A DNA stretch of 64,000 bases from Cryobacterium arcticum (GTDB taxonomy: Bacteria; Actinomycetota; Actinomycetes; Actinomycetales; Microbacteriaceae). The notes beneath the pieces were generated by a model, which did no database searches, was not told the DNA's origin, and saw only the letters and a list, made by a program, of their open reading frames with translations. The stretch spans positions 930,001 to 994,000 of the forward strand of contig NZ_CP016282.1 of assembly GCF_001679725.1 (NCBI RefSeq), in the 5' to 3' direction. Below, piece by piece: positions 26,975 to 44,606 of this stretch; position 1 is the first letter of the stretch; each line of letters starts with the position of its first letter. The position numbers and the translations under genes are program-made.

Positions 26975-28039
26975 ATGCAACTGGGACGAGTCGGGGGACA
27001 GACGGCGCCGGGGGAGAGCCCCGAGTGGACCTTCGTGGTCGGCCGCGGTTTCCTGGTGGTGGTGCCCGTCAGCACGCCCACCCCTGTCGTCGCTGCCCTG
27101 CACGGTCTGGCCGCGGAGTCCGTCGTGCCGATCGAGGATCTGGTGGCCCTGATCCCGCTCGGTGGCCTGGACGACGTGGACTCGTTCGCGGTGATCGTGC
27201 CCGGTCTGCCGCCCGAGACCGCGCGGGCAACCGACGGGCCGCCGCACGACGGGATCCCGGTGCACGCCCTGGTGCGAGGCGCCCTCGCCGTGGATGTCTT
27301 CTCCATCGGCGGGTCGCGCCGGTTCACCGACCGCAATATCAGGCCGTGGCTGCTGGCGGAGTTCCAGGCCGTGACCGGTCTTGTGATCGGATCACCGCTG
27401 GCCGCCGTCGCCCGGACGCACCAGCTCGGCGCCGGCCGGGTGCTCGGCGAGGGAATCGACGCCGGTGACACCCTGTTCTGGTCGGTCGCCGGCCGCGGCG
27501 CCGGGGCGGCCGACACGGTCCTCCGCCCCCGAAGGATCGTGGATGACACCGTGCTCCTCACCCGCACCGGGGACCCCGACGAACGACGGGCCGCGGCCCC
27601 GCTCGGCGGCAGCGCCAACGACGCGGCGGTGATCCACGACCGAACCGCCGACAGTCGAACCGTCGATAGCAGTGCCGATCCGGATGCCGCACCGCCCGGG
27701 CCATGCGGCTTCCGGTTGGCCACCGGCCGGGAGGCCAGGCTCGACCGGGTGTACCGGATCGGGCGGAACCCCCGCACCCGCCGCATCCCAGCCGGAGAGA
27801 TTCTGGAGTTGGTGACGGTGGACTCGCCCAACGCTCTCGTGTCGGGCAACCACCTCGAAATCCGGCAGACCGGCACCGCTGTGGTGCTCACCGATCTCGG
27901 CTCCACCAACGGCACACTCGTGCGATTCGCCCTCGGCCGCACCCAGAGACTGCGCTCCGGAGCCTCCCTCACAGTGCTGCCCGGTACGACGGTGGACATC
28001 GGGGACGGTAACCTGATCGAGATACTGCCAGCGGGCTGA
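26975..28039 (+). CDS. FHA domain protein, first gene of the PFNA-like cluster
   Basis: This 354-residue protein has a C-terminal FHA phosphothreonine-binding domain (about residues 258-354): YRIGRNPRTR supplies the Gly-Arg, SGNHLEIRQ the conserved Ser/His, and DLGSTNGTLV the Asn. The first 250 residues have no motif I recognise; they begin LGRVGGQTAPGESPEWTFVVG and are predicted as mixed alpha/beta. A GAGGGAG site precedes ATG 26975, although the frame is open further upstream. It is followed by PP2C phosphatase and kinase genes, so the likely ligand is a phosphorylated partner in the cluster. Confidence 0.85.
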   Translation: MQLGRVGGQTAPGESPEWTFVVGRGFLVVVPVSTPTPVVAALHGLAAESVVPIEDLVALIPLGGLDDVDSFAVIVPGLPPETARATDGPPHDGIPVHALVRGALAVDVFSIGGSRRFTDRNIRPWLLAEFQAVTGLVIGSPLAAVARTHQLGAGRVLGEGIDAGDTLFWSVAGRGAGAADTVLRPRRIVDDTVLLTRTGDPDERRAAAPLGGSANDAAVIHDRTADSRTVDSSADPDAAPPGPCGFRLATGREARLDRVYRIGRNPRTRRIPAGEILELVTVDSPNALVSGNHLEIRQTGTAVVLTDLGSTNGTLVRFALGRTQRLRSGASLTVLPGTTVDIGDGNLIEILPAG

Positions 28040-28087
28040 GCGTCGCTCGTTGACTAGCCGCACGTTCGCATTCGGAAGGCACCACCC

Positions 28088-28942
28088 GTGACCCAGATAG
28101 GTCAAGGCTCTCCCAGCCACACGATCGCGCTCCCCGCGGTGAAGAAATCAGTCACCCTGGCGTGGTCCGCGCTCACCGACGTCGGTCACCGCCGCGAGGT
28201 CAATGAAGACAGCCTGGTGACGGCGTGGCCCGTGTTCGCGGTCGCCGACGGCATGGGCGGCCACTCGGCCGGCGATGTCGCCAGCAAGGCCGTGGTCACA
28301 CGGCTAGCCGAACTCGGCGGCACCCCGACCACCACGGCGGAGTCGCTCAACCAGGCACTCGCCCTGGCCGTGGACGACATGAAGGCCGGTGAGGGTGTCA
28401 CCGACCTCGGCACCGGAACCACCGTCACCGGCGTGGCCCTGGCCATCGTCTCGGATGCCGCGCAACTCATCGCCTTCAACATCGGCGACTCCCGGGTCTA
28501 CCAGCTCACCTCCGGGGTGCTGGAGCAGGTGACCATCGACCACTCCGTGGTGCAGGAACTCGTGGACGCCGGCCGGATCACCCGCGAAGAAGCGGATGTG
28601 CACCCGCACGGCAACGTGATCACCCGCGCCGTCGGTTTCCACGAACCGCCGGTGCCGGACTACCGGATCCTCCCGCTGCACGAGGGCCTGCGCATCCTGG
28701 TCTGCTCCGACGGCCTCACCAAGGAACTCACGGCGTACGGCATCCGGCACTTCCTGATGTCGAACCCGAACGCGGACGACGCCGTGTCCGCCCTCGTGAC
28801 CGCCGCGCTCGAGAACGGCGGCCGCGACAACGTGACCGCGATCGTGCTCGACGTGCTGGCCGTGGACGATCTCGAGGGCGAGCCCGACCCGGCCGACGAG
28901 CGCGAGGGCGGCGACGCGGCCGACGACGCCTCCCGGACCTGA
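28088..28942 (+). CDS. PP2C-family protein serine/threonine phosphatase
   Basis: This 284-residue soluble phosphatase has the PPM fold: GHRREVNEDS (metal-linked N39-D41), FAVADGMGGHSAGDVAS (D54, G55), VCSDGLTKEL (D208) and GGRDNVTAIVLDV (D247). All metal ligands of the dinuclear site are present. It has no transmembrane segment, unlike PstP of mycobacteria. The C-terminal tail (residues 260-284) is Asp/Glu-rich. GTG 28088 has a GGAAGG site. It lies between an FHA gene and a Ser/Thr kinase and is most likely the phosphatase that opposes that kinase. Confidence 0.93.
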   Translation: MTQIGQGSPSHTIALPAVKKSVTLAWSALTDVGHRREVNEDSLVTAWPVFAVADGMGGHSAGDVASKAVVTRLAELGGTPTTTAESLNQALALAVDDMKAGEGVTDLGTGTTVTGVALAIVSDAAQLIAFNIGDSRVYQLTSGVLEQVTIDHSVVQELVDAGRITREEADVHPHGNVITRAVGFHEPPVPDYRILPLHEGLRILVCSDGLTKELTAYGIRHFLMSNPNADDAVSALVTAALENGGRDNVTAIVLDVLAVDDLEGEPDPADEREGGDAADDASRT

Positions 28943-29062
28943 ATGCCCACGGCCATAGAATTGAGCCGGGTGGTCGTTTACCCGTGACGACGCCCGACAC
29001 ACCGTAACCGGCAAGCAATCCGGCGCGAGAGCGACCGGCCGACACGAACCACGGGAGGCGCC

Positions 29063-30484
29063 ATGGCAGGACGACTGCCGTCGACGCCCCCGGCGCTGCC
29101 GGGGTTCTCCTACCTGCGTCTGCTGGGCTCCGGCGGATTCGCGGATGTGTTCCTGTACGAACAGAACCTGCCACGCCGCCAGGTGGCCGTGAAGGTCCTC
29201 CTCGCCGAGGTCGTCAGCGACCCCGTGCAGCGACTGTTCCAGGCCGAGGCCAACCTGATGGCGCAGCTGTCCGCGCACCCGTCCGTGCTCACGGTCTTCC
29301 AGGCCGGCGTGTCGGCCGACGGCCGGCCCTACCTGGTGATGGAGTACTGCTCCAGCGCCCTCGAGGAGCGGTACCGCTCCGGCCGATTGCCCATCTCCGA
29401 GCTGCTCCGCATCGGCGTGACGATATCCAGCGCCGTGGAGACCGCCCACCGGGCCGGCGTGCTGCACCGCGACATCAAGCCGTCGAACATCCTGATCACC
29501 GCGTACGGGCATCCGGTGCTGGCCGACTTCGGCATCGCGGCGACACTGGGCGAGGTGGAGGCGGCCGACCAGGTCGGCCTGTCGATCCCCTGGTCGGCGC
29601 CCGAGGTACTGCTCGAGGACTGCGCCGGGTCGGTCGCCGCCGAGGTCTGGTCGCTGGGCGCGACCCTGTACACGTTGCTGTCCGGCCGGTCACCGTTCGA
29701 GGTGCCCGGCGACCAGAACAGCCCTGCCCAGCTCATCTCCCGCATCGGCAAGGCGGCGTTGCCGGCCATCGGACGGGCCGATGTGCCCCCGCGCCTCGAG
29801 CTACTGCTGGCCAGGGCGCTGTCCAAGCGGAGCGAGCGCCGGCCGGCGAGCGCTCTCGAATTCGCCCGGGAGCTGCAGGCCGTCGAGGCCGAACTCGGAC
29901 TTCCGCAGACGCCGCTCGAGCTGGCCAGCGCCGAGTGGGAGGCGCAGGCGGCCGGTGATTCGGCCGATCAGACCCGCATCACCGCCCTGGTGAGCGTGGC
30001 CGCCCGGCCCGAGCGGCGCCGGCGCCGCGAGCCCGGCACCCGCCCGGCCCCGGTGGTGGCCGCGACGGCCGTGACCCGGCGGCCACGGCGCCTGATCGTC
30101 GCGGCCGTCGTGGGCGGTGTGCTCGTCACCGGCGTGATGGCCGGGGCCCTGCTCATCGGCCCGTTGCTCGCCCCGCCGGCTGTGAGCACCGGCACGACCG
30201 GGATTCCCCGGGTGAGCGACGTGGCCGGCAGCGGCTCGGACGGCACCGTGGTGTTCAGCTGGGCCGACCCTGGCACCGTGCCGGGTGACAGCTACCTGGT
30301 GCGCCTCGGCACCGGCGAGACCAGCCTGCAGCGCGGTACCGAGTTCACCGTGCAGACCGACAGCGCCCAGCCCGGTGCAGGCCAGGCCGAACCGGTGTGC
30401 GTCACCGTGAGCGTCAACCGCGACGGCCGCACCGGCGCTGCCAGCACCGAGAAATGCGTCGACCCCGGCGAGTTCGATCGATGA
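29063..30484 (+). CDS. Membrane Ser/Thr protein kinase with an Fn3-like ectodomain
   Basis: This 473-residue kinase has a cytoplasmic Hanks-type domain (residues about 15-285): Gly loop LLGSGGFADV, K44 in VAVKV, catalytic D137 in HRDIKPSN, and D155 in DFGIA. A basic linker (about 310-343) leads to one membrane segment (about 344-370) and a roughly 100-residue outer domain (VSDVAGSGSDGTVVFSWADPG then SYLVRLG) that looks like a fibronectin type III fold. There are no PASTA repeats. The ATGA overlap couples it to the giant Ig/Fn3 gene. It corresponds to the Pkb2 position in the bifidobacterial PFNA cluster. Confidence 0.92.
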   Translation: MAGRLPSTPPALPGFSYLRLLGSGGFADVFLYEQNLPRRQVAVKVLLAEVVSDPVQRLFQAEANLMAQLSAHPSVLTVFQAGVSADGRPYLVMEYCSSALEERYRSGRLPISELLRIGVTISSAVETAHRAGVLHRDIKPSNILITAYGHPVLADFGIAATLGEVEAADQVGLSIPWSAPEVLLEDCAGSVAAEVWSLGATLYTLLSGRSPFEVPGDQNSPAQLISRIGKAALPAIGRADVPPRLELLLARALSKRSERRPASALEFARELQAVEAELGLPQTPLELASAEWEAQAAGDSADQTRITALVSVAARPERRRRREPGTRPAPVVAATAVTRRPRRLIVAAVVGGVLVTGVMAGALLIGPLLAPPAVSTGTTGIPRVSDVAGSGSDGTVVFSWADPGTVPGDSYLVRLGTGETSLQRGTEFTVQTDSAQPGAGQAEPVCVTVSVNRDGRTGAASTEKCVDPGEFDR

Positions 30485-33400
30485 TGCGCGCCTGGCTCGC
30501 CGGCCACCGCTCGCTCGCTGCGACCATCACAGGCGGCACCGTCGTGACGGCCCTCGTCGTGACCCTCGCCGTCGTCTCCGGCGGGTACTCCGCCCAGAAG
30601 GTCGACCTCGGCGATGCAGCGGTCTGGGTGTCCAGCGAGACCAGGCAGCTCGTGGGCCGGGTCAACACGGAGATCGCCGAGCTGAACACCGTGGTGCCGG
30701 TCGAGTCCGACTCCAGCACCGTGGTGCAGAGCGGCGGCACCGTCCTCGTCGTGGACAGCAACACCGGCACCGTCGGCATCCTCGACCCTGCCACGGCGAC
30801 CCTGGCCGACAGTGTGGCCCTGCCGCCGGGCGCCCCCGAGGTGCAGCTGGCCGGCGACCTCGCCGCGATCTGGTCCGACGGTGACCTGTGGACCACCACA
30901 GCCGGCGCGCTGGCCGATTTCGACAGCACGATGGAACCCGCTCTCACGCTCGGCGACGGCACGCTGTTCAGCCTCGCCCCCTCCGGTGAGCTGTTCGCGT
31001 TCACCCCGGCCACGCAGGCCCTGGTGCGCATCGACCCCGACCGCGCCGACGCCGTGACCGAGACGACCACGCTCGCCGCCGGCGAACCCGACGACGCCTA
31101 CCAGCTCAGCCAGGTGAACGGCAGCTGGGCCCTGCTCAACGCGACGACGGGCATCCTGCTGCTGGCCAGCGGCGCCGTCGACCTTGCCGAATCCCTGGGC
31201 ACGGATGCCGAGCCCCGGCTGCAGGATGCGGCCACCGGCGGCGACCGGGTCCTCATCGCCCACAGTGCGGGCCTGATCGCCGTGCCGGTGGGCGGCGGGG
31301 CGGCCACGGAACTCCTCCCCGACGGCGCCGCGGCGGGCGCCCCGGCCCGGCCCGCGATCTCGGGGCTGTGCGCGTATGCGTCCTGGGCCGACGGCACCGC
31401 CTGGCAGGCCTGCGGCATCGGCTCCCCGGCCGGGAACACCGCCACCCTCGTCGGACTCAACGGCGACGCCCGCCTGGACTACCGGCAGAACGGCAGCCGG
31501 CTGCTGCTCAACGACTCCCGCAGCGGCACCACCTGGAACGTCCAGGACGGCAACACCGTCATCGACAACTGGGACGACCTCATCGACCCGGTCTCCGACC
31601 GGCAGGTGGTCACCGAGGCCACCGACGACAGCCCGCCGGAGTACGAGGACACCCAGGCGCCGCCCGTGGCCGTCGACGACGACTTCGGCGCCCGCCCGGG
31701 CCGCACCGTCACGCTTCCCGTGCTGCTGAACGACTACGACCCCAACAACGACGTGCTCGTGATCGACACCGTCAGCCAACCACCGGCGAGCCAGGGCCGG
31801 GTGGAGCTCGTCGCCGCCAACCAGCAACTCCAGCTCACCCTCACCGCCGACGCCACGGGCATCCTCACCTTCGACTACACGATCAGCGACGGGCGCGGCG
31901 GCAGCGACTCGGCCCGCGTGACCGTGACCGTACGCGGCCCCGACGAGAACTCGCCGCCGCAGCAGGTGCGGCAGACTCGCGCGACGGTCGAGGCCGGCGG
32001 CCGGGTCGGAAGCCAGGTCCTCGGCGACTGGGTCGACCCGGACGGCGACCCCTTCTACCTCACCGCCGCCACCGCGATCGCCCCGGACATCGCCACCGCC
32101 ACCCCGCAGGGCCTGGTGGTGTTCACTGACGCGGGCGGTGGCGGCACCGAGGCGCAGGTCGGCCTCGTCGTCTCCGACGGCAGCCTCACCGGCACGGGCA
32201 CCCTCGACGTGACCGTGCGCCCCGCCGGCACGGTTCCGCTCGTCGCCGACGGCTTCGCCGTGCGCGTCACCGCGGGCACCGAGGTGACGGTGTCCCCGCT
32301 CGAGCACGCCCGCGGCGGGGCCGGCCCGCTGCGGCTCGGCGCCGTGCCGGCCCGGCCCGACGTCACCATCACCGCCGACTTCGCCGGCGGCACCTTCCGC
32401 TTCGCCAGCGACGCGGTGGGGGTGCACTACCTCGACTACGCCGTGACCGACGGGGTGGCCACGGTCACCGGCATCATCCGGGTGGATGTCGCCCCTGCGC
32501 CGGACGGCCCCGGCCGGCCCATCACGGTGCCGCACACCGCCTTCCTCCGCGCCCAGCAGCCCACCGTGATCGATGTGCTGGCGACCGACATCGACCCGGC
32601 CGGGGGAGTGCTCTTGGTCACCGGAAGCAGCAACCAGCCCGCCGTCAGCGGCCTGACCGTCGAGATCCTCGACCAGCACCTGCTGCGGGTCACGCTGACC
32701 CGGCCGCTGCCCGCCGGTACGACCGGCTTCGACTACACGGTGAGCAACGGACTGGCCGAGGCCACCGGCACCGTCACCGTGATCGAGATCCCGGCGGCGA
32801 GCACCCGGCAGCCGCCCGTAGCGACCCCGGACACCGTCTCGGTACGGGTGGGCGACACCGTCGACATCCCCGTGCTCGCCAACGACGAGCATCCGGATGG
32901 TGACGAGCTCACCCTCGACCCCGCCCTGACCACCCCGCTGCCGGCCGGCGCCGGGCTGCTCTTCGCATCCGGCCGGGTGCTGCGCTACCTGGCACCGCTG
33001 ACCGCGGGCAACTTCACCGCCGTCTACCGGGTGAACGCGCCGGACGGCCAATTCGCCGACGCGGAGGTGCGCATCTCCGTGCGGGAGGCAGACCTCGCCA
33101 CCAACAACCCGCCCCGGCCCACCACGGTGACCGCGCGGGTGCTCGCCGGCGACACCGTGCGCATCCCCATCCCGCGCACGGGTATCGACCCCGACGGCGA
33201 CTCCGTGCAGCTGCTCGGCCAGGAGACCAACCCGGAGAAGGGCGCCGTCATCTCGTCGGACGCCGACTCGCTCAGCTACCGCGCCGGGGACTACTCGGCC
33301 GGAACCGACACCTTCACCTACGCCGTCATCGACGCCCTCGGCGCCCGTGCCGTCGGCACCGTGCGGGTGGGCATCAGCCCGCGCCCGGACGGCGCCCGCA

Positions 33401-36400
33401 ACCCCGTCGCCGTGCCCGACGAGGTGACGGTGCGGCCCGGCTCCCGGGTCTCCGTGCGGGTGCTCGGCAACGACTCCGACCCCGACGGCGGCGCGCTGAC
33501 CATCACGGGCGTCGACGCGACCGGCAGCGGAGACGCCCAAGCCGGCACCGCGACCGTGGACGGCGACCTCATCGTGGTGAAGGCGCCGACGGTCGAGGGC
33601 CGGTTCGGCTTCGTCTACGAGATCCAGAACGACCGCGGCGGTTCGGGCTCGGCGTTCCTCACCGTCGTCGTGGCCGCGAACGCCCCGCGCGCCCACCCCG
33701 AGGCCGCCGACACCCGGCTCACCCTGTCGGATGTGCTCGGCCGTGCCACCGTGGACGTCGACGTGCTGGCCCGGGTGTTCTTCGCCGAGGGTCCGGCGCG
33801 CTCGTTGACCCTGGCGGTGCTGCCCGGCAACGCTGCGGCCGGAGCCGCGAGCGTCACCGACGCCCAGCGCATCCGGGTCACCGTGGGCAAGACCAGCCAG
33901 ATCATCCCGTTCAGCGTCACCCACCCGCAGGACCCGGGGATCGTGTCCTACGCGTTCGTGTGGGTGCCGGGCACCGACGACGCCCTCCCGCAGCTGCGGG
34001 CCGGCGCGGCCAAGCTCGTCGTGGCCAGCGAGGCGACCCTGACCATCGACATCAACGACTACGTCGTGGCGGTGGGGGATGCGCCCGTGCAGCTCACCGA
34101 CCGCAACACCGTGCGCGCCACCCACGCGAACGGCGCCGAGCTCAGCACGGGCCCCCGCACCCTCAGCTTCACCAGCGCCGACCAGTACTTCGGCCCGGCC
34201 TCGATCTCCTTCGAGGTCACCGACGGCGCCAGCCCCACCGACCCGGCCGGCCGCACCGCCACGATTGTGCTGCCCATCACGGTGACGCCCCGGGAGAACC
34301 AACCGCCCGCATTCGACGGCGCCCTGATCGACTTCGAACCCGGCCAGGAGAAGGTCATCGACCTGGCCCGGCTCACCTCCTACCCCTACCCGGACGACCG
34401 GGACGAGCTCGCCTTCACCGTGCTCGACCCGCAGCCCACCGGATTCGACTACTCGCTGGCCGGCAGCCTGCTCACGGTGCGCGCCCTCGAGGGCACGATC
34501 AAGGGCAGCAGCAGCTCGGTGACCATCGGGGTGCGCGATGCCCTCTCGGCGGGCAAAGCCGGCCGGATCGTGCTCGGCGTCGTGGCGTCGACCCGGCCCC
34601 TGGCCGTGCCCGTGACGGATGCGGCGATCGCGCCGCGCGGGCGCAGCACCGTCATCGACGTGCTCGCCAACGACGGCGCCGCGAACCCGTTCCCCGCCGT
34701 GCCGCTGCGGGTCGTCGCGGTGCAGGGCCTGGACTCCGCCGCGCTACCGGCCGGGGTATCGATCAGTCCGAGCGCCGACAACAACCGGCTCACCGTGCGG
34801 GTGTCCGGTGACGCCCTGCCCACCGACACCACCCTGCAGTACCAGGTGGCCGATGCCACGGGCGACCCCGACCGCTACACCTGGGGCCTGGTGCGGATCT
34901 CGGTGCAGGACGTGCCCGAGCCCGTCACGGGGCTCCGCGCCACGGGCTTCGGCGACGGCAGGATCACCGTGGCCTTCAACCCCGGCCCGGCGAACAACGC
35001 GCCCATCACCGGCTACCAGCTGAGCACCGTCGACGCCGCCACCGGCCGTGCCCTCGGCAGCACCTCCTGCGCCTCCACCTCCTGCACGCTGAGCACCCCG
35101 GGCAACGGCCAGGCCAACGCCGTGCGGGTCGGCGTCACCGCCCGCAACAGCATCGGCGACTCCTCCGACACGACCCTCGCCCAGACTGTGTGGTCCGACG
35201 TGATCCCGGCGGCGCCGACCGGGCTCACCGCGGCGCCCCTGGATGCCGGGCTGCTGCTCTCCTGGAACGTCGTCGCGCCGACCGGCGGGGGCACCGGCAT
35301 CCGCGGCTACCAGGTGAGCGTTGCCGGCACGATTCAGCCCGAGGTGAGCGCCACCGGCGCGCACTGCGACGGCACCCGGTGCACCCTCACGGTGAGCGGC
35401 CTGCAGAACGGAACCAGCGTCGAGTACACCGTCAGCGCCCGGAACGACGCCTACCCGGCGCTGTCCAGCTGGAACAGCACGGCCGCCACCGGGCAGCCCT
35501 ACGGCCCAGCGCAGGCCGGCGGCATCACCGCGACCGCCGCCGACAGCACCGGCGCCGTGACCGTGGGCTGGGACGGCTTCGCCGACCGCGGCGACGCCAT
35601 CGCCGGGTACTACGTGCAACGCATCAGCGGGGACACCGTGCCCACCGGCGCGCAGGCCTGCACGGTCAGCACCCCGGCGCCCGGCACCGTGACCGCACCG
35701 CGCGCCGGCGGCCCAGTGCTCGAGCAGAAGAGCGTGCCGGCCGGGGGGCGCAGCGCCGTGTTCGACGGTCTGCTGGCCGACAACGGCAACTATTCGTTCG
35801 TCGTGTGGGGCTACAACCGGGCCGGCTGCGCCGCGACGACGGTCGCCACAGTGCTCGTGCGGCCGGCGCCCACCGCGATCGGCGACGTGCGCGGCGGCAT
35901 GGAGAAGAAGGGTGACGCCTGGGACTACCACCTCACCTCGGCGAGCCCGTCGGCCGGGGTCGACCACTACGACATCCGCGCCGGCGACGGCAGCGGCGCG
36001 GTGCAGAGCATCCCGACGGCGAACGCCTGGCCCCGGGAACTGCTCGGGCTCCCGTTCGGCTCCACGGTGTCGTTCCAGTTGCGCGCATGCACGGTCTGGG
36101 GCAGCTGCGGGCCGTGGTCCGCCGCGACGACCGCGCCGGAGGCATCCGTGAGCTTCACCGTCACCGGACTGGAATACGACGGCACCGCCGGCCGGTTCTC
36201 CTGGACCGGAGCGCCCGCCAACGGCGGACTGCCGGCCGGATTCGACTGCGCCGTGGCCGGTTCGCCGGCGCCGAGGACGCCAGCCGACAGCAGCACGACC
36301 TGCACACTGCCCGCCCCGCTGCCCGCCAGCGGAACCGTGGTGCTCACCGTGACGGTGAACGGCCACTCCTTCGACTACACCCGCCCGATCCCGACGAAAG

Positions 36401-36414: not shown

Positions 36415-37454
36415 CCCTCACCCCCGATCGTGTGAACCAGGGACAGCCGCGTGCGCAGCCCGGCGCCGACCTGATGACCAGCGAGGAAGCCAGCCAGTTC
36501 GCCACCCTCTTCGACCGGCTGGTGCGCGGCGTCGAGGAGGTCGTGCTGGGCAAGCAGCACGTGATCCGGCTCGCGTTCACCACGTTGTTCAGCGGCGGGC
36601 ACCTGCTGCTGGAGGACGTGCCGGGCACCGGGAAGACCTCGCTGGCCCGCGCCGTGGCGCAGAGCGTGCGCGGCACCAGCAGCCGGGTGCAGTTCACCCC
36701 CGACCTGCTGCCCGGTGACATCACCGGGGTGAGCATCTTCGACCAGCGCACGGCCACCTTCGAATTCCACCGCGGGCCGGTGTTCGCCAACATCGTGCTC
36801 GCCGACGAGATCAACCGGGCGAGCCCGAAGACGCAGTCCGCGCTGCTCGAGGTGATGGAGGAGGGCCAGGTCACGGCAGACGGGATCACCCATCGGCTGA
36901 GCGGCCCATTCATGGTCATCGCCACCCAGAACCCGATCGAGCAGGCCGGCACCTACCGGCTGCCCGAGGCCCAGCTGGACCGGTTCCTGATGAAGACCTC
37001 GATCGGCTACCCCGACCACGCCGCCACCGTGCGGATCCTCGAGGGTGCCAGCCGGGCCGCCGGCGACGCCCAGGTGGCGCCGGTGCTCTCGGCCGAGTCA
37101 GTCGTGGAGGTCGCCGCCCTGGCCCGCACCGTGTTCGTCGACGCGACCATCAACGACTACGTCTCCCGGCTCGTCGACGCCACCCGCTCCAGCCCGGAGG
37201 TGCGCCTGGGCGCCAGCGTGCGCGGCGCCCTCGCCCTGGTGCGCACGGCCAAGACCTATGCCGCCTCACAGGGCAGGCACTACGTGGTGCCCGACGACGT
37301 GAAGGCGCTCGCCGAACCCGTGCTGGCGCACCGGATGCTGCTGGACGCCGAGGCCGAATTCGACGGGGTCACCGCCTCGAGCGTGATCGGCCGGATCCTG
37401 GTGGAGACCCCTCCGCCGCGCAGCGCCGAGGAGCGGCGGGCGGATGCGCTCTAA
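36411..37454 (+). CDS. MoxR-family AAA+ ATPase
   Basis: This 347-residue soluble AAA+ ATPase has Walker A PGTGKT (K75), Walker B IVLADEINRA (D132, E133), sensor 1 in VIATQNPIEQAGTYRLPEAQLDRF, and the C-terminal lid domain. MoxR proteins act as chaperones, usually with DUF58 and von Willebrand-type partners, to mature or assemble envelope complexes. ATG 36411 overlaps the stop of the Ig/Fn3 gene; ATG at residue 22 is a less likely start. The gene ends 11 bases inside the DUF58 gene. It is the aaa-atp member of the PFNA-like cluster. Confidence 0.95.
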   Translation: MTLTPDRVNQGQPRAQPGADLMTSEEASQFATLFDRLVRGVEEVVLGKQHVIRLAFTTLFSGGHLLLEDVPGTGKTSLARAVAQSVRGTSSRVQFTPDLLPGDITGVSIFDQRTATFEFHRGPVFANIVLADEINRASPKTQSALLEVMEEGQVTADGITHRLSGPFMVIATQNPIEQAGTYRLPEAQLDRFLMKTSIGYPDHAATVRILEGASRAAGDAQVAPVLSAESVVEVAALARTVFVDATINDYVSRLVDATRSSPEVRLGASVRGALALVRTAKTYAASQGRHYVVPDDVKALAEPVLAHRMLLDAEAEFDGVTASSVIGRILVETPPPRSAEERRADAL

Positions 37455-38616
37455 CCTCCGGATGCTCCGCGCGGTCACGCCGCTCGGCTGGGCCGTCTCC
37501 TGCTGCGCGCTCGCGGCGCTCGCGGCCGGATACACCCTGGGCTGGGCCGAGCTCGTGACGATCGGCTGGGCGGCCGCCGTTCTGGTGGCCGTCGCCGTGG
37601 CGTACCTGTTCGGCGGCACGAGCCACCGCATCTCGCTGAGCTTGCCCGTCGACAGGGTCGTCGCCGGGGAACGGGTGCCCGGCCAGGTGGACGTGCAGAA
37701 CCCGACCGGCCGACGGCTGGGCGCCGTGACCGTGCAGGTGCCCGTTGGCGCCGGGGGAGTGGCCGAGTTCCCGGTGCCGTCGCTGGCGGCGCACGCCGTC
37801 CTCGACGAGGTCTTCGTCGTGCCGGCCGAACACCGCGGCATCGTCCCGATCGGCCCCGTGCACACCGTACGCGGCGACCCTGTGGGCCTGGTGCGGCGCG
37901 AGACCGTGCTCGCCCAACGCATCGACCTGTACGTGCACCCGCGCACCATCGCCATCCCCAGCATGAGCCAGGGCTTCGTACGCGACCTGGAGGGCACCCC
38001 GACCCGCGACCTCACCTCGAGCGACATCGCGTTCCACGCGCTGCGCGAATACCAGCCCGGCGACGACAGGCGCAGCATCCACTGGAAGAGCACCGCACGG
38101 ACCGGGCGGTTCATGGTGCGCCAGTACGAACAGACCCGGCGCAGCCATCTGCTCGTGGTCTTCAGCCTGGCGCCGGCCGACTACGCCGGCGACGAGGAGT
38201 TCGAACTGGCCGTGAGCGTGGCCGGGTCGTTGGGCGTGCGGGCGATCCGCGACGCGCGCACCGTGTCGGTTCTGGTGAGCAGCGGACCGTTGGCCACGGT
38301 GACGCCCGCCCGGCTGCTCGACGGCCTGAGCGGCGTGGACCTGACCCCCTCGGCCGCAGGCCTCCGCACCCTGGCCCGTCAGGCCGCCCGGTCGGTGGCC
38401 GGGCTGTCCGTGGTCTTCCTCGTCTGCGGCTCGTCGACCCCGCTGGCCGTGCTGCGGGCCGCGGCCGCCGGCTTCCCGCTGGGCGTCGAGGTCGTCGCCG
38501 TGGTCTGCGACCCGGGAGCCCGGCCGGGGCTCGTCCACTCCGGCAACCTGAGCCTGGTCACCATCGGCTTCCTCGACGACCTCAAACAGAGCCTGGCCAG
38601 GGGAGCCGCGGCATGA
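37444..38616 (+). CDS. DUF58 domain-containing membrane protein
   Basis: This 390-residue protein has two N-terminal membrane helices (about residues 12-55), a beta-rich extracytoplasmic or membrane-proximal part, and the diagnostic DUF58 motif YQPGDDRRSIHWKSTARTG (around residue 210), followed by a von Willebrand A-like region (HLLVVFSLAPADYAGDEEFE). DUF58 proteins nearly always lie next to a MoxR ATPase and a transglutaminase-like protein, as here. Function is unknown; an adaptor for MoxR is the usual inference. It overlaps moxR by 11 bases and the next gene by 4. Confidence 0.92.
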   Translation: MRSNLRMLRAVTPLGWAVSCCALAALAAGYTLGWAELVTIGWAAAVLVAVAVAYLFGGTSHRISLSLPVDRVVAGERVPGQVDVQNPTGRRLGAVTVQVPVGAGGVAEFPVPSLAAHAVLDEVFVVPAEHRGIVPIGPVHTVRGDPVGLVRRETVLAQRIDLYVHPRTIAIPSMSQGFVRDLEGTPTRDLTSSDIAFHALREYQPGDDRRSIHWKSTARTGRFMVRQYEQTRRSHLLVVFSLAPADYAGDEEFELAVSVAGSLGVRAIRDARTVSVLVSSGPLATVTPARLLDGLSGVDLTPSAAGLRTLARQAARSVAGLSVVFLVCGSSTPLAVLRAAAAGFPLGVEVVAVVCDPGARPGLVHSGNLSLVTIGFLDDLKQSLARGAAA

Positions 38617-40961
38617 CCGCGCACGGCACCCGCTGGATCCTGGGCAACACCGCGGCCATGCTCGCCGCCACCGCCGTGGCGGCCACCGCCCTGTGGCCGG
38701 TGTACCAGAGCACGGCGTTCGTGCAGCTGGTCGCCGTGACCGCCGTGCTCGGCTGCGGCATCGCCGTCGCCGGCAGGGTGTGGCGCTGGCCGGCCTGGCT
38801 CGTCGCCGCGGCGACCCTGGCCGGCTACCTCCTCGTCGGGGTGCCCCTGGCCATTCCCGGCCGCGCGCTGTTCGGCGTGCTGCCGACCCCCGCCGGCCTC
38901 GCCGAGCTGGTGCCGGCGACCGCGCTCAGCTGGAAACAGCTGGTCACCATCGTGCTGCCGGTCGGCTCCTATCAGGCCCTGTTGGTGCCCGCCCTGATCC
39001 TGGTGCTGGGCAGTACCGTCATCGGGCTCACCGTGGCGCTGCGCAGCCGGGCCGCCGAGACCGCGCTGCTGGCGCCCGCACTGCTCTTCGTGGCCGGCAT
39101 CATCCTGGGCCCTGGCACCGCCGAGTCACCGGGACTCCGCGGGCTGGCCCTGTTCACGGTGCTGGTGCTTTGGTTGCTCTGGCTGGGCCACGAACGACGG
39201 CGGCACCGGCTGACGGTCAGCGGCGGCCGCGCCAGGCCGGTCGGTGCCCGTCGCCCGGCCGCCCTCAGGGTGGCCGCGCTCACCGCGCTGTCGCTTCTGG
39301 TGGCCGTCGGCGCCGGTTCGCTCGCCTCCTCCGCACTGCCGCCGACGGCGACCAGGGACGTGCTGCGCACCCGGGTGCAGGCCCCGTTCGACGTGCGCGC
39401 CTACCCGAGCCCGCTCACCGGTTTCCGCGGCTACCTGGCGGCCGACCGGGCCGACGCCGTGTTGTTCGAGGTGTCCGGTCTGCCCGCGGGCGGACGCATC
39501 CGGCTGGCCACCCTCGACGACTACGACGGGGTGGTCTACGCCGTCGGCAGCGCGGATGCGGCGTCCGGTACCGCCGATTCGGGCACCTTCACCCGGCTGC
39601 CGTACCGCCTCGACCAGAGCGCCGTCGCCGGTGACGAGGTCACCCTCACGGTGACGGTCCAGGACTACTCGGGAGTGTGGGTCCCAGGAGCCGGCGCGCT
39701 GGAGCGCATCCGGTTCACCGGCCCGGCGGCGTCTGAACTGCAGGACTCGTTCGTCTACAACAACCTCGGCGGCACCGCCGCCGTGATCGCAGGCCTCGGA
39801 CGCGGCGATGGCTACACCAGCACGTCGGTCGTGCCGTCTACTACCGGCGACCTCGCCGACGCCCTGCCCGGCACTGCGGTGCTGCCGCCCATCGGGGTGC
39901 TGCCCGACGGGCTCGACGAGACCCTCGCCGGGTACCTGCGTCCCGGAGACAGTACGGGCGAGCGGCTGCAGGCCATGCTCGACGGTCTGGCTGCGGACGG
40001 GTACGTCAGCAGCGGGGCCGCCGGGGAACCGGCCAGCCGCTCCGGCCACGGCGCCGACCGGATCAGCGAGCTCCTCGACGACCAGCCGATGCTCGGCGAC
40101 GCCGAGCAGTACGCGGTGACGGCCGCGCTGATGGCCAGGCAGATCGGCTTTCCCGCCCGGGTCGTGCTGGGCTTCGCCCCCGACGGCGACGGCGACGGCG
40201 GCCCCACGGCCGTGACCGGGGCCGACGTGTCGGCCTGGATCGAGGTGCAGACGCTCGCCGACGGCTGGGTGAGCCTGGACCCCACCCCGCCCGTGCGGGA
40301 CATCCCGGAGAGCCAGCCGGAGGACCCCACCCAGGTGGCCCGCCCGCAGACCGTGCTGCCGCCTGCGGTACCGGACACGGCCGACCAGATCGACCCGGCC
40401 CCGCCGGAGAGCAGCACGGCGGACGACCCGCCCACCGCTGATCCGTTCTGGGGTGTCGTGCGCCTGGTGGTCGCCGTCGTCGGATGGTCGGCGCTCGGCC
40501 TGCTCGTGCTCGCCGCACCGTTCCTGGCCGTGATCCTGGCCAAGTGGCGTCGGCGCCGACGCCGGCGGCGGGCCCCAGGGGCCGTCGACCGGGTCGTGGG
40601 CGGTTGGCGGGAATTCGCCGACACCGCCACCGACTACCGCATCGACGTGCCCGGACAGGCGACACGCGCCGAACTGGCACGGTCCGTGGGCGGTGTGCGC
40701 GCCGCGTGGCTGGCGGCGGAGGTGGACCGGGCGGTCTTCGCGCCCGACGGGGCCGCGCAGGCCGACGGCGACGCGGTCTGGGTATCGGTGCGGGAGCTGC
40801 GCACCAGCCTGGGCGCTGGGCGCACCCGCCGCGAGCGGATGCGGGCGGCTGTCTCGGTGCGCTCTTTCGGTCGCTACGCTAAGAAGACGACCGGGCGGGA
40901 GGGTCGACGCAGGCGCCGGCCGGGGGGAACCGGCGCGAGCACGAAGGGAACGGGCACGTGA
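38613..40961 (+). CDS. TgpA-like membrane protein with a degenerate transglutaminase domain
   Basis: The 782-residue protein has about seven N-terminal membrane helices (residues 10-230), a large outer region, a transglutaminase-core-like domain (about residues 440-560), one more membrane helix (about 613-640), and a cytoplasmic tail. In the core, the usual GxCEx(F/Y)A becomes GDAEQYA (A497 for the catalytic Cys), and the usual AHAWxEV becomes VSAWIEV (S540 for the His); only D556 in LDPT remains. It therefore cannot be a cysteine transglutaminase/protease and is probably a binding pseudoenzyme. It fills the tgm position of the PFNA-type cluster. ATGA overlap with DUF58. Confidence 0.88.
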   Translation: MTAHGTRWILGNTAAMLAATAVAATALWPVYQSTAFVQLVAVTAVLGCGIAVAGRVWRWPAWLVAAATLAGYLLVGVPLAIPGRALFGVLPTPAGLAELVPATALSWKQLVTIVLPVGSYQALLVPALILVLGSTVIGLTVALRSRAAETALLAPALLFVAGIILGPGTAESPGLRGLALFTVLVLWLLWLGHERRRHRLTVSGGRARPVGARRPAALRVAALTALSLLVAVGAGSLASSALPPTATRDVLRTRVQAPFDVRAYPSPLTGFRGYLAADRADAVLFEVSGLPAGGRIRLATLDDYDGVVYAVGSADAASGTADSGTFTRLPYRLDQSAVAGDEVTLTVTVQDYSGVWVPGAGALERIRFTGPAASELQDSFVYNNLGGTAAVIAGLGRGDGYTSTSVVPSTTGDLADALPGTAVLPPIGVLPDGLDETLAGYLRPGDSTGERLQAMLDGLAADGYVSSGAAGEPASRSGHGADRISELLDDQPMLGDAEQYAVTAALMARQIGFPARVVLGFAPDGDGDGGPTAVTGADVSAWIEVQTLADGWVSLDPTPPVRDIPESQPEDPTQVARPQTVLPPAVPDTADQIDPAPPESSTADDPPTADPFWGVVRLVVAVVGWSALGLLVLAAPFLAVILAKWRRRRRRRRAPGAVDRVVGGWREFADTATDYRIDVPGQATRAELARSVGGVRAAWLAAEVDRAVFAPDGAAQADGDAVWVSVRELRTSLGAGRTRRERMRAAVSVRSFGRYAKKTTGREGRRRRRPGGTGASTKGTGT

Positions 40962-41557
40962 ACTGCCAGATTTGCAGTGCGCACCTGCCGGAGGGCGCCA
41001 TGTTCTGCGGCGGCTGTGGGAGTTCGACCACGGCCACCCCGTTGACCCGCAAGCGCGCCGATCCCCGGCCCAACGACACCACCATCATCCAACCGGTGGC
41101 GCCGCGGTCCACGGTGATCTCGGTTCCGCTCTGGCCGGCCGGCAGCCTGCAGGCCGGCACGGCTCCAGCCCCCGCCCCGGCCTCCGCGGATGCCGCTCCG
41201 GAGGGTGCCGGCACGCCGGCGCCCGTCGTCGCTGAGCGGTACACCCTGCAGTTCAGCACGGGCGAGACCGTCTCGGTGCGCGGCACGGGCCTGATCGGCC
41301 GCCGGCCGCTGCCGCAGCCGACCGAACGATTCGATCACCTCATCCAGATCACCGACCTCGGCATGTCGGTGTCCAAGAGCCACCTGGAATTCGGCCAGCA
41401 CGACGGCGAGTTCTGGGTCAACGACAGGTTCTCCGGCAACGGCACCGTCGTGCGCCGGGCGCCGGCCCCCGCGCTGCGCTGCGAACCCGGGCGCCGGTAC
41501 CTTGTCGGGCGTGGGTCCCGGGTGGAGATCGGCGACCAGTTCTTCATGGTGCTCTGA
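40958..41557 (+). CDS. Zinc-ribbon plus FHA domain protein
   Basis: This 199-residue cytoplasmic protein begins with a zinc ribbon (C3, C6, C17, C20; CxxC-x10-CxxC), has a Pro/Ala-rich linker (about residues 60-85), and ends with an FHA domain (about 100-199): GLIGRRPLPQ, then SVSKSHLEFG, then VNDRFSGNGTVV. It is the second FHA protein of the cluster, at its distal end, and directly precedes the FtsK/EccC-like ATPase. In Firmicutes EssC, FHA and FtsK-type domains are fused, so the two may function together here. GTG 40958 overlaps the upstream stop. Confidence 0.88.
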   Translation: MNCQICSAHLPEGAMFCGGCGSSTTATPLTRKRADPRPNDTTIIQPVAPRSTVISVPLWPAGSLQAGTAPAPAPASADAAPEGAGTPAPVVAERYTLQFSTGETVSVRGTGLIGRRPLPQPTERFDHLIQITDLGMSVSKSHLEFGQHDGEFWVNDRFSGNGTVVRRAPAPALRCEPGRRYLVGRGSRVEIGDQFFMVL

Positions 41558-41654
41558 CCGACGACAGGTCCTCCACAGCCTGCTGACGACGGAAGTTCTT
41601 CACCGGTCTCCGGCCCGGCCGGGCACGGGAGCGCCGTCCGGCTTCGCTGGAGCC

Positions 41655-44606
41655 ATGGCCACCGACTCACCGCAGCTCCCGCCGGCCGACCCGATCCGGT
41701 TGCCGACCCGGCCGACGGCGCCCGACCGGGCCGCGTTCCCCCTCATCGCCTGCGTGGCGCCGCTGATCGCCGCGGGCCTGATCTGGTGGATCACCGGGTC
41801 GGCGCTGGTCCTGGTCTTCGCCGTGCTCAGCCCGGTGATCGCCGTGGCCGGGCTGCTCGACGGGCGATGGTCCACCGCCCGGCGACGACGCCGGGATGCC
41901 GCGGACTACGCGGCCGCGATGACCGAGGCCGCGGATGCCGTGGACCGGGCCCTCGAGAGGCTGCGCGACGCCGCCTGGCACCAGGCGCCCTCCGTGCAGA
42001 CCATGCTCGAGCGACCGGACGAGCCGGGCCGCTGGGCGGACCCGGCCGAAGCACCCGTCGTTCTCGGCGCCGGCACGGTGCCCAGCGGCCTGCGCCTGGA
42101 GGGGGCCGGTGACGCCGCCGAGCACCGGGAGCTGCGGGCGCGCGCCGCCGGGCTCGCGGGGGCACCGATCGTCGTCGACCCGGCCGGCGGCATCGGGCTG
42201 ATCGGGCCTGGGCTGCTGCTGCGGGCGCTCGCGCGGAGCCTGGTGGTGCAGTTGACCGGGCAGCTCAGCCCTCGCAGTCTGGGCCTGCGGCTGCCGGACG
42301 GACCGGACTGGGCGTGGGCGGCCCGACTCCCGCACCACCGTGCCGAGTCCCCGGCGCAGTGGCTCACGGTGCTCGACGCCGATCAGACATCCCCGCCGCC
42401 GCACCGGCCAGGGGACGGACCCTGGATCGCGTTGGCCGGCACCGGAGCGGGCCTGCCGCCGGGGTGCGCCACCGTCGTGCGGGTGCACGGGCCCGTCGGC
42501 GCGGAGATCGTGCGCTTGGCGGGCCGCCCGGCTGCCGTGCCCGTGGCTCCCGTTCTGGTGGCCGAGAGCCAGGTGGCCGGGCTGGGGGAGGCGCTCGGCC
42601 GTGCGGCAGACGCGGCCGGCCTCGGGGGACCCACCGGCACCCTGCCCGACACGGTCTCCTTCGCCGCGCTCGGTGCTGCGACGGGCGCAGGTGCGGCCAG
42701 CACCCGCGTGGCCGGGCCCGTGACGGAGCTGAGCTGCGCGGTGGGCCTGGGCGAGCACGGGCCCCTCGTCGTCGACCTAGTGCGCGACGGCCCGCACGCC
42801 CTCGTGGGCGGCACGACGGGCAGCGGCAAGAGCGAACTGCTGGTGACATGGGTGGCGGCGCTGGCCTCCCGGTACGACCCCGGCCAGGTCACCTTCCTGC
42901 TCGTCGACTTCAAGGGCGGCGCGGCCTTCGACCTGCTCCGCGCCCTGCCGCACTGTGTGGGGCTGATCACCGACCTCGACGAGCGGGAGGCGCACCGCGC
43001 CCTGGCGAGCCTCGCGGCCGAACTGCGGCACCGGGAGCGCGTGCTGCGGGACGCCGGCGCCCGCGACATAACCGACTTGCCCAGCGCCGCCCTCGCGCGG
43101 CTCGTGATCGTCGTGGACGAGTTCGCGACCATGGTGGCCGCGTTCCCGGCCCTGCACGCCGTGTTCGTCGATATCGCCGCCCGCGGGCGCTCCCTCGGGG
43201 TGCACCTGGTGCTCTGCACGCAGCGGCCGGCCGGCGTGCTGAGGGACGCGCTCCTGGCCAATTGCAGCCTGCGGATCTCGCTGCGAGTGAACAACCGGGC
43301 CGACAGCCAGGCCGTGCTCGGTTCGGATGCCGCCGCCCTGATCGACGCCGCCCGCCCCGGCCGGTGCGCGCTCGTGCGGGGGTCCACGCCGGTCGAGACC
43401 GCACAGGTGGCCGCAACGGGTGACGCCGACATCCGGCAGATCGCGAATGATCGGCCGGCCGGGCCGAACCTGCCGCGGCGCCCCTGGCTGGACCCGCTCC
43501 CGCACCGGGTGACCCGGGCGCAGCTGGCCGCAACGGGCGCCGCCCCGCCAGGACTGCTGCTCGGCCTGCTCGACGAGCCGGAGCACCAGCGTTACCGGGT
43601 GGCCGGCTACGACCCCGGCGTCGACGGCAACCTGCTGGTGATCGGCGGTGCGCGCACCGGCAAGTCCACTCTGCTGGCCGCGCTCGCCGAGCAGGCGCCG
43701 TCCAGGGTGCGGCTGGTGCCCGCCGACGTCGAGGGCACCTGGGATGCGCTGGTGCGGGCCCACGCCGAACTGGACGGCCTCGTCCACACGGACCGGGCGA
43801 CCGGCGCTCACCGGCAGGAGGGCGCCCGGGAGAGCCGGCTGCTGCTGATCGACGACCTGGACGCCGTGCTGGCGCGCTGGGGCGACGAACACCGGGCCGC
43901 CGCTGTGGACCTCGTGACCGGTCTTCTCCGAGACGGCGGGCCGAGCGGGCTGCGGCTGGTCATCACCGTTCAACGGCTCACCGGCGCCTTGCAGATGCTG
44001 CCCGCCCTGTGCCAGAGCCGGGTGGTGCTGCGGCTGCCGGGCGTGCACGAGCACCAGGCCGCGGGGGAGCCGGCGGCCAGCTACGACGCAACCCTGCCTA
44101 CCGGCGGCGGCCGTTGGCGGGGCGGGCGCATCCAGCTGCTGCAGCCGGAGCCGGTCGGCGGCGGCTCGGCGCAGCCGGTGCGACGACACGTCGATGTGCC
44201 CTCGGCCTCGGATACGGCGGGTCCGGAGGGGGTACGGGCGGTGCTGCTCGTGGTCGCCGGTTCGGTCGCCCGGTCGGCCGCGGCGTTCCAGGTGGATGGG
44301 CCGGCCGGCTCCCGCCGCGTGGTCGAGCTGGCGGCCGGTCCCGTCGCCGGGGCGGGTGGCCGGATAGAAGTGTCCACGGTGGCCGCAGGCACCGTGCTGG
44401 TGGGCGACGCCGATGCCTGGCAGGGGAACTGGTCCCTGCTGGCCGGGCTGCGCCGAACAGCACCGCTGGTCTTCGACGGCGCCTCCCTCGGCGATTACCG
44501 CCTGCTGACACGTCGGCGAGAGCTGCCGCCACCGTTGGCGCCGGGCCGCTCGCGGGGCTGGCTCGTCGAGCCGGACGGCACCGTCCGGCGGGTGACGCTG
44601 CCCTAA
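41655..44606 (+). CDS. FtsK/SpoIIIE-type membrane ATPase, EccC/EssC-like
   Basis: The 983-residue protein has two N-terminal membrane helices (about residues 29-70), a roughly 300-residue spacer, then a full FtsK/SpoIIIE ATPase (Walker A GTTGSGKSE with K392; Walker B IVVDEFA with D488, E489; CTQRPAG sensor) and a second, weaker ATPase (GGARTGKST with K670; LLIDDLDA with D733, D734). This two-helix plus tandem-ATPase layout is that of type VII secretion EccC/EssC rather than of DNA-translocating FtsK, which has four helices and a gamma domain. No WXG100 gene is seen nearby. ATG 41655 is chosen as the first Met before the membrane part. It converges on ald. Confidence 0.85.
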   Translation: MATDSPQLPPADPIRLPTRPTAPDRAAFPLIACVAPLIAAGLIWWITGSALVLVFAVLSPVIAVAGLLDGRWSTARRRRRDAADYAAAMTEAADAVDRALERLRDAAWHQAPSVQTMLERPDEPGRWADPAEAPVVLGAGTVPSGLRLEGAGDAAEHRELRARAAGLAGAPIVVDPAGGIGLIGPGLLLRALARSLVVQLTGQLSPRSLGLRLPDGPDWAWAARLPHHRAESPAQWLTVLDADQTSPPPHRPGDGPWIALAGTGAGLPPGCATVVRVHGPVGAEIVRLAGRPAAVPVAPVLVAESQVAGLGEALGRAADAAGLGGPTGTLPDTVSFAALGAATGAGAASTRVAGPVTELSCAVGLGEHGPLVVDLVRDGPHALVGGTTGSGKSELLVTWVAALASRYDPGQVTFLLVDFKGGAAFDLLRALPHCVGLITDLDEREAHRALASLAAELRHRERVLRDAGARDITDLPSAALARLVIVVDEFATMVAAFPALHAVFVDIAARGRSLGVHLVLCTQRPAGVLRDALLANCSLRISLRVNNRADSQAVLGSDAAALIDAARPGRCALVRGSTPVETAQVAATGDADIRQIANDRPAGPNLPRRPWLDPLPHRVTRAQLAATGAAPPGLLLGLLDEPEHQRYRVAGYDPGVDGNLLVIGGARTGKSTLLAALAEQAPSRVRLVPADVEGTWDALVRAHAELDGLVHTDRATGAHRQEGARESRLLLIDDLDAVLARWGDEHRAAAVDLVTGLLRDGGPSGLRLVITVQRLTGALQMLPALCQSRVVLRLPGVHEHQAAGEPAASYDATLPTGGGRWRGGRIQLLQPEPVGGGSAQPVRRHVDVPSASDTAGPEGVRAVLLVVAGSVARSAAAFQVDGPAGSRRVVELAAGPVAGAGGRIEVSTVAAGTVLVGDADAWQGNWSLLAGLRRTAPLVFDGASLGDYRLLTRRRELPPPLAPGRSRGWLVEPDGTVRRVTLP

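Follow-up and report, generated by a model that had tools for sequence, protein, structure and literature searches.

The locus described here raises the question of what a secretion-type motor ATPase is doing at the end of a gene cluster that otherwise resembles the PFNA loci of bifidobacteria. The window, a stretch of 64,000 nucleotides from the 4.35-Mb genome of Cryobacterium arcticum (contig NZ_CP016282.1, positions 930,001 to 994,000), whose order also takes in genomes named Bifidobacterium, carries nine genes on the forward strand between positions 26975 and 44606. Their order had been correctly given in a first-pass annotation of the window: an FHA protein (here FHA1), a PP2C phosphatase, a kinase, a giant Ig/Fn3 protein, MoxR, DUF58, a transglutaminase-fold protein (Tgm), a zinc-ribbon/FHA protein (ZnFHA), and an FtsK/EccC-like ATPase. 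The families were confirmed above Pfam cut-offs: in order, FHA, PP2C, Pkinase, Big_9/cadherin-like plus fn3, AAA_3 (MoxR), DUF58, TgpA_N plus Transglut_core (Tgm), FHA (ZnFHA), and FtsK_SpoIIIE. The preferred answer, rated at close to an even chance, is that two modules meet here at one site between lrp and ald genes, and would together form a regulated envelope or export system. The first would be the PFNA core (kinase, giant, MoxR, DUF58, pseudo-transglutaminase, and an FHA protein), a companion of type VII secretion in many Actinomycetota; the second would be PP2C, ZnFHA, and a short EccC-like ATPase. The association of PFNA with type VII secretion is the new finding; FHA and PP2C genes in PFNA were already known.

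By sequence homology and gene order, the window core is PFNA. The published core has five genes (kinase, fn3, MoxR ATPase, duf58, and tgm), to which some loci, in B. longum and others, add the phosphatase gene prpC, a hypothetical gene, and fha (accessible text of PMC8430577). A scan of named genomes gave 80 loci, 73 from Bifidobacteriaceae and seven from Cellulomonas, Actinotalea, Flavimobilis, and similar. Profiles made from window relatives, which also included sequences of two Bifidobacteriaceae loci (L064 and L065), matched a giant in 77 of these, MoxR in 75, DUF58 in 79, Tgm in all 80, and a kinase in 77. The order kinase-giant-MoxR-DUF58-Tgm is common to the window and nearly all named Bifidobacterium loci, which bears out the resemblance to PFNA that had been proposed for this core. 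The FHA genes had further been taken for an extension of PFNA; neither they nor PP2C extend it, since published PFNA has both (PMC8430577).

Relative to Bifidobacterium PFNA as described in the accessible text of PMC8430577, PMC6803598, and PMC10688814, then, the window shares all five core genes and their order; like some species it also has a PP2C (prpC) and an fha gene, and its Tgm, like those of the 73 Bifidobacteriaceae loci fetched, lacks the catalytic Cys. It differs in that PP2C and one FHA gene are upstream of the kinase, the other FHA protein is the zinc-ribbon one, and an EccC-like ATPase follows the core; FtsK goes unmentioned in the accessible text of two of these papers (PMC8430577 and PMC6803598). 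PFNA has been called unique to bifidobacteria (PMC8430577, in part), but this fails: core loci occur in Cellulomonas, Flavimobilis, and many further families, and Tgm-type matches (weaker TgpA-like ones included) in 196 of 297 genomes of the order. Partial likenesses reach further still. The three genes are ordered alike in the MoxR-DUF58-transglutaminase triads that PMC6803598 cites from Wong and Houry, and MoxR and DUF58 alike in the mycobacterial moxR operon, which has already been likened to PFNA (PMC12067865, in part); in the window, by contrast, the transglutaminase is a pseudo-enzyme and the trio is tied to kinase, giant, and FHA genes. A second PFNA-type cluster in the same genome, at about 2410000-2436000 (L051 and L052), is without FtsK, and is ordered PP2C-FHA-kinase-FHA/helix-two giants-MoxR-DUF58-Tgm-FHA, with one giant cut by the locus border.

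Loci from many other families suggest that the PFNA core is linked there to a type VII EssC, often with WXG100 genes. Thirty core loci of up to 40 kb were hand-picked for family spread, as were the 20-kb loci used elsewhere in this study, and some are cut by contig ends. Thirteen hold an ATPase of the EssC clade (~1500 amino acids), one an unplaced ATPase (SG073, support 44), three a divergent EccC type (SG103, SG221, and SG303), and 13 none; the ATPase of a further locus, L171, is likewise not in the main EssC clade (support 50). Twelve of the 30 share, with minor variations, the commonest order: giant-MoxR-DUF58-Tgm-FHA-PP2C-FHA-kinase-FhaHTH-EssC, where FhaHTH is an FHA/helix protein; WXG100 genes mostly follow. 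Pfam finds FHA plus FtsK domains in the two EssC proteins tested (L058 and L246), and WXG100 above cut-off in all three small proteins.

Linkage was also evident in a random draw of 396 genomes of the phylum, of which 46 have EssC, 106 Tgm, and 33 both. In 10 of these 33 the two genes are at most 15 kb apart, where 0.47 would be expected; the test takes the top two candidates per genome and places them at random anywhere in the genome, with neither contig ends nor ancestry taken into account. The ten linked genomes fall in ten different families. Six of the linked loci were read (G041, as L057; the joined G073 locus; and L170 to L173), the others being in G099, G523, G457, and G422. L170 to L173 come from genomes outside the window's taxonomic order: L170 has giant, MoxR, Tgm, EssC, and WXG100; L173 has giant, MoxR, DUF58, Tgm, and EssC; L171 has a weak giant match, MoxR, and Tgm, with EssC ~6 kb further; and L172 has a weak DUF58 match, Tgm, three WXG100 genes, PP2C, EssC, and kinase. 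EssC is present in 16 of the 17 genomes that have a close core-type Tgm (E ≤1e-40) and in 30 of the 379 that do not (P ~1e-15, without correction for ancestry). A literature search found no paper combining PFNA and type VII secretion systems, within the limits of its wording; of the papers listed, PMC8191103 alone has WXG100, MoxR, DUF58, and type VII secretion, but its accessible text mentions them separately, and has a mycobacterial MoxR-DUF58-RDD gene list with no type VII link. If the core does belong with type VII secretion across families, the bifidobacteria-specific host-immune reading of PFNA needs revision, and there are concrete candidates for the wall-spanning part and the kinase/phosphatase role in actinobacterial type VII systems.

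The window core can be placed among these loci by a tree of MoxR, DUF58, and Tgm from 75 loci, with near-duplicates, most Bifidobacterium loci, and SG103 left out. All window-type cores cluster in a single clade (local support 0.91), whose sister group (local support 1.0) contains two EssC-linked loci, and EssC-linked cores are spread over many clades; three loci (L055, L056, and L069) are labelled as lacking type VII genes in this tree merely because they end early. FHA1 (26975..28039) matches the FHA protein that the consensus loci encode between PP2C and kinase (probability 94.5%, E 8e-8, 123 columns), in a profile comparison made with 18 of the 22 consensus frames, four of at least 800 amino acids being left out. 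Given this match and the core content, the window holds nearly all of the consensus parts, rearranged; those not found in its cluster are EssC, WXG100, and the FHA/helix gene. Elsewhere in the genome, at 3318000-3337000 (L053), is a type VII locus with no kinase or core gene found next to it; it has a 1494-amino-acid EssC frame and a WXG100 gene, the product of which looks very similar to the WXG100 proteins encoded next to the core in L089 and in the joined G212 locus.

The last gene of the cluster (41655..44606) encodes a short EccC-like FtsK ATPase of 983 amino acids, with a membrane segment and two ATPase domains with intact Walker motifs; the Walker A lysine and Walker B DE of D1 are kept in 38 of 38 relatives. 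Like EccC and EssC it has an N-terminal membrane segment, D1 and D2 domains, and 4nh0 as its best solved match; this entry, titled FtsK/SpoIIIE, is an EccC, and the next closest chains are YukB and EccC5. It differs from EssC in length (~983 amino acids vs. roughly 1480-1530 in most EssC frames), in its separate branch, and in having no FHA on its own chain, the FHA being in the gene before.

This ATPase is a family trait. Orthologues (E ≤1e-75) were found in 25 of the 297 genomes of the order, with two candidates scored per genome, all of them in the window's family, and 57 of 57 genomes of the same genus have the window-type ATPase. It had been expected that an FtsK/EccC-type ATPase would recur in the same place in relatives, and it does so in four genera of the family. 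Linkage of the FHA and FtsK genes to the core was the other expectation, and here the outcome is split: among 20 FtsK-centred loci of the family the core is present in eight and absent from the 14 kb upstream in 12, whereas PP2C is in the locus in all 20. In the 12 core-less loci, PP2C either adjoins FtsK or has no more than ZnFHA and one small gene in between. Two species of the same genus, for example, have the order lrp, aldehyde-dehydrogenase-like gene, PP2C, small PhnA-like gene, ZnFHA, FtsK, ald (the two "-like" labels being by eye), without the five core genes and without a recognizable FHA1. A window-type Tgm (at least 55% identity) is present in 22 of 36 same-genus genomes; it neighbors FtsK in all 19 that have both on one contig, and the other three have them on different contigs.

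All window-type loci seen lie in one family, and their shared gene order could conceivably be a matter of recent common descent, with little functional meaning. Orthologous ATPases are only 40-48% identical between genera, however, and, provided that linkage is ancestral, core and module have come apart in three lineages or more; of all the explanations weighed here, recent common descent is rated the least probable.

Several results nonetheless weigh against the preferred reading, in which the PFNA core, as a companion of type VII secretion, and the PP2C-ZnFHA-ATPase module form one system. Some of them concern the ATPase. In a tree of D1 domains, from which frames of at least 500 amino acids only were taken (71 kept), it is split from the EssC clade with support 100, which rules it out as an orthologue of type VII EssC. 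Its nearest relatives there, weakly supported (49-53), are short ATPases encoded beside whiB1, one of which carries an N-terminal FHA domain on the same chain; in the window the FHA is encoded by a gene of its own. NCBIfam scores for the window ATPase are 239 bits for EssC (cut-off 778) and 193 for EccC (cut-off 509). With its FtsK-type fold and whiB1-linked relatives, the protein might thus be a DNA or division motor controlled by PP2C and the FHA proteins, its place beside the core being historical. Its NCBIfam score as an FtsK translocase is a mere 50 bits, though, also below cut-off and far behind those for EssC and EccC, and the genome has a separate match resembling FtsK translocase, so that a DNA or division role seems quite improbable. 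The whiB1-linked short FtsK genes (L254, L255, L256, and L257) are from two Bifidobacterium genomes and two of another family; the gene lies just ahead of a whiB1-like gene, with a small reverse gene between them in the other family's two genomes.

Other results pointing the same way concern the core and its supposed partners. There is no PF06013 (WXG100) match in the window, and the two above cut-off in this genome are at 3.1 and 3.3 Mb. The hand-picked core loci without any EccC/EssC-type ATPase number 13 of 30, as noted above, and four of the ten genomes that show linkage in the random draw do so through a weak Tgm match (E 1e-43 to 1e-21). None of the 73 named Bifidobacteriaceae loci has an EssC within 10 kb or to the contig end; a long EssC match was found in 3 of 18 Bifidobacteriaceae genomes, with weaker matches, to a ~1330-amino-acid frame, in two more. 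Finally, the 14 same-genus genomes without a window-type Tgm all keep the ATPase, and one of them (G010) has no Tgm match at all. Two Bifidobacteriaceae genomes (G115 and G170) have a full-length EssC on the contig of the PFNA Tgm, ~32 kb away from it.

Because core-less loci and Tgm-less genomes keep FtsK, PP2C-(ZnFHA)-FtsK is best described, from gene content, as a module able to live without the core. Could the PFNA core then be a stand-alone envelope or adhesion system, and FtsK an unrelated neighbor sharing only the phosphatase and the site? Such an arrangement would account for an ATPase in every same-genus genome surveyed where window-type Tgm is in 22 of 36, for the PP2C-FtsK modules without a core in 12 of 20 loci, and for a core without a long EssC match in most of the 18 Bifidobacteriaceae genomes. 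It would leave unexplained why window core and ATPase occur together in four genera, with trees that broadly match by eye, why they are neighbors in every one of the 19 same-genus genomes with both on one contig, and why core and EssC are linked in ten families. A stand-alone core is rated unlikely, though it is the strongest of the rivals.

The giant protein bears on a further possibility, the one originally favored: that the FtsK/EccC ATPase is there to export or assemble this surface protein, given as 1977 residues long. The length is right, counting from the ATG at 30481 (gene 30481..36414), and the protein, FN3 of PFNA, consists of an N-terminal membrane anchor, a beta-propeller, eight Big_9 stretches, and fn3 repeats. 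In the predicted structure the propeller is of high confidence and lies ahead of the Ig/cadherin-like and fn3 repeats. Its best Foldseek matches are an archaeal surface-layer propeller, AztD, and BamB; a sequence search of the region against solved structures gave nothing significant. By hydropathy, 150 of 153 homologues have an N-terminal membrane segment and none of the 153 a C-terminal transmembrane helix. The giant's presence in the same cluster as an EccC-like motor is what suggests export by it. The giant's own N-terminal segment would fit Sec-dependent insertion, however; the ATPase is kept in loci and genomes without the giant's core, among them all 14 of the Tgm-less same-genus genomes; and the 73 named Bifidobacteriaceae loci, followed for 10 kb or as far as the contig reaches, show no such ATPase. 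Export or assembly of the giant by FtsK is thus unsupported, and is considered improbable. With its anchor, propeller, and Ig/Fn3 repeats, the giant looks like part of the machine.

The genes following the giant encode a MoxR-type AAA+ ATPase (36411..37454), a DUF58 protein with two N-terminal hydrophobic segments (37444..38616), and Tgm (38613..40961), which is polytopic, with TgpA_N and a transglutaminase-fold domain. The catalytic cysteine is absent from 160 of 161 aligned Tgm sequences, including that of the window, where the corresponding codon (40101..40103, a position computed from the alignment) specifies Ala. The sole sequence to keep it is the genome's third Tgm (L050), which looks like an ordinary member. 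The active-site positions were checked against L050, which has the cysteine. On this alignment Tgm is a pseudo-enzyme, which corrects its annotation as an enzyme and runs against the description of a transglutaminase-like enzyme in the literature (accessible text of PMC8430577).

The remaining genes supply the phospho-signalling set that had been recognized in the cluster, and whose PP2C, as noted, is in every family locus examined: a PP2C/Stp-type Ser/Thr phosphatase (28088..28942), a Ser/Thr protein kinase with one transmembrane segment that is the Pkb2 counterpart (29063..30484), and the two FHA genes. The kinase has a tail of ~110 amino acids beyond the transmembrane segment, without a Pfam match; by eye this had suggested an Fn3 domain, a candidate dropped when no Pfam match was obtained even at E 10. 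In B. longum, the PFNA kinase Pkb2 phosphorylates the MoxR of the operon (PMC8430577, in part).

Both FHA proteins have linkers with conserved D-T motifs, and together make up a candidate phospho-switch. FHA1 has an N-terminal domain of unknown fold (no Pfam match; the 50 Foldseek matches listed, of 507, are all FHA-containing entries), a linker with D-T-[VI]-[VIL] motifs, and a C-terminal FHA domain. The linker is predicted to be disordered, and contains a D-T that is invariant in 17 of 17 aligned sequences; by motif statistics, there are 46 copies of D-T-[VI]-[VIL] in the linkers of 18 orthologues, with 1 to 7 per linker, against 1.45 expected by shuffling. The two D-T-V-L motifs of the window (27512..27565) are candidate phosphothreonine docking sites. 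The L079 linker has seven copies, mostly as tandem DDTVIRGAD-like units. Three residues that bind phosphate in FHA domains (Arg, Ser, and Asn) are invariant in FHA1. ZnFHA (40958..41557) has a zinc ribbon, a linker, and an FHA domain. The ribbon, already suspected, falls below the Pfam cut-off, but its CxxC pairs are present in 26 of 26 orthologues, all 26 of which also keep the D-T-T of the linker motif NDTTII (41072..41089).

How might these parts work together? One mechanism would fit the observed gene content and orders, linkage statistics, lost catalytic cysteine, and conserved ATPase and D-T motifs. The kinase would phosphorylate D-T-T/D-T-V threonines in the FHA proteins, whose FHA domains would then hold motor and envelope proteins together, with PP2C resetting the switch. 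MoxR, with DUF58 and the membrane-bound pseudo-transglutaminase, would assemble or open an envelope complex, of which the giant would be the outward-reaching part, adhesive or conduit-forming. The ATPase would drive either export of a substrate or assembly of the complex, the direction and the substrate being conjectural.

A more specific reading is offered tentatively, as a whole that is somewhat less secure than the two-module one. Here a type VII subtype of actinobacteria, so far undescribed, would have the PFNA core as its envelope half. Kinase, PP2C, and FHA proteins would gate the motor through the D-T-T/D-T-V threonines; the MoxR/DUF58/pseudo-transglutaminase complex would handle a wall-spanning propeller-Ig-Fn3 rod; and bifidobacterial PFNA would be a remnant or dispersed form, with the window cluster a WXG100-less derivative in which a short EccC paralogue has replaced the motor.

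Among known systems, the closest comparison is with T7SSd (Garrett, Higginson and Palmer 2024, PMC11217815), which, in the accessible text, combines a kinase with an FHA-bearing ATPase, WXG100, and a 1654-amino-acid Ig-like protein. The EssC-linked relatives of the window resemble it in their membrane kinase, FHA-bearing EssC-type ATPase, WXG100, and large Ig-like envelope protein, and in some loci a protein with one transmembrane segment and an unstructured tail. The window cluster, compared with T7SSd, lacks WXG100 and a full EssC. Its kinase and TsdD, which has a transmembrane helix, are the same kind of protein. TsdC has an N-terminal FHA, as do L058 and L246, whereas the window FtsK has no FHA match; and TsdI has a C-terminal transmembrane helix, unlike the giants. 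MoxR, transglutaminase, and fibronectin are unmentioned in the main text of PMC11217815, as far as accessible. In L057 and L058, the first ~100 residues of EssC, before the FHA, look by eye like a ubiquitin/YukD-type domain; if that is right, it could explain the ubiquitin-like protein reported to be missing from T7SSd.

Six loci (L054, L061, L062, L063, L068, and L089) have a small protein downstream of PP2C with 1-6 D-T-V/D-T-R motifs and, by eye, one membrane segment; that of L054 has six DDDTVLGR-like motifs. Like TsdH of T7SSd, this protein may serve FHA domains as a scaffold of phosphosites. The threonine phosphorylation pathway of type VI secretion offers an analogy only: a kinase and an FHA protein control a secretion machine there too, and the pathway also includes a PP2C phosphatase, but the machine itself is not homologous. 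The same pathway has been compared with type VII subtypes (PMC11217815, in part).

In the window, the overlaps reported for the five junctions from the kinase through ZnFHA are all present: ATGA at kinase/giant, giant/MoxR, and DUF58/Tgm, 11 bp at MoxR/DUF58, and GTGA at Tgm/ZnFHA. These genes are likely, from their overlaps, to form a single transcript. The spacing is 48 bases between FHA1 and PP2C and 120 between PP2C and kinase. A longer FtsK frame, open from the TTG at 41502, begins within ZnFHA; the likely start is the ATG at 41655, leaving a gap of 97 bases after the ZnFHA stop, and an overlap is not required. Gene calls were stop-to-stop frames ranked by third-position GC, by which small genes may be missed.

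The arrangement recurs beyond chance. Of 17 same-genus loci fetched, 15 have the nine genes in plain order, the exceptions being L083, with FtsK in two frames, and L084, whose order could not be resolved by script. The same plain order is seen in four of eight core-bearing loci of other genera. The rest are L098, with the nine-gene order but MoxR and FtsK each split over two frames; L100, without the second FHA; L102, without the first; and L107, without both, although in L102 and L107 these may have been cut off or gone unrecognized. Both borders of the cluster are on the reverse strand. To the left is an Lrp/AsnC-type regulator (26351..26833), which has an orthologue close to the core-less module in both L090 and L091; to the right is the alanine dehydrogenase gene ald (44603..45730), which is also the right border of most core-less PP2C-FtsK modules.

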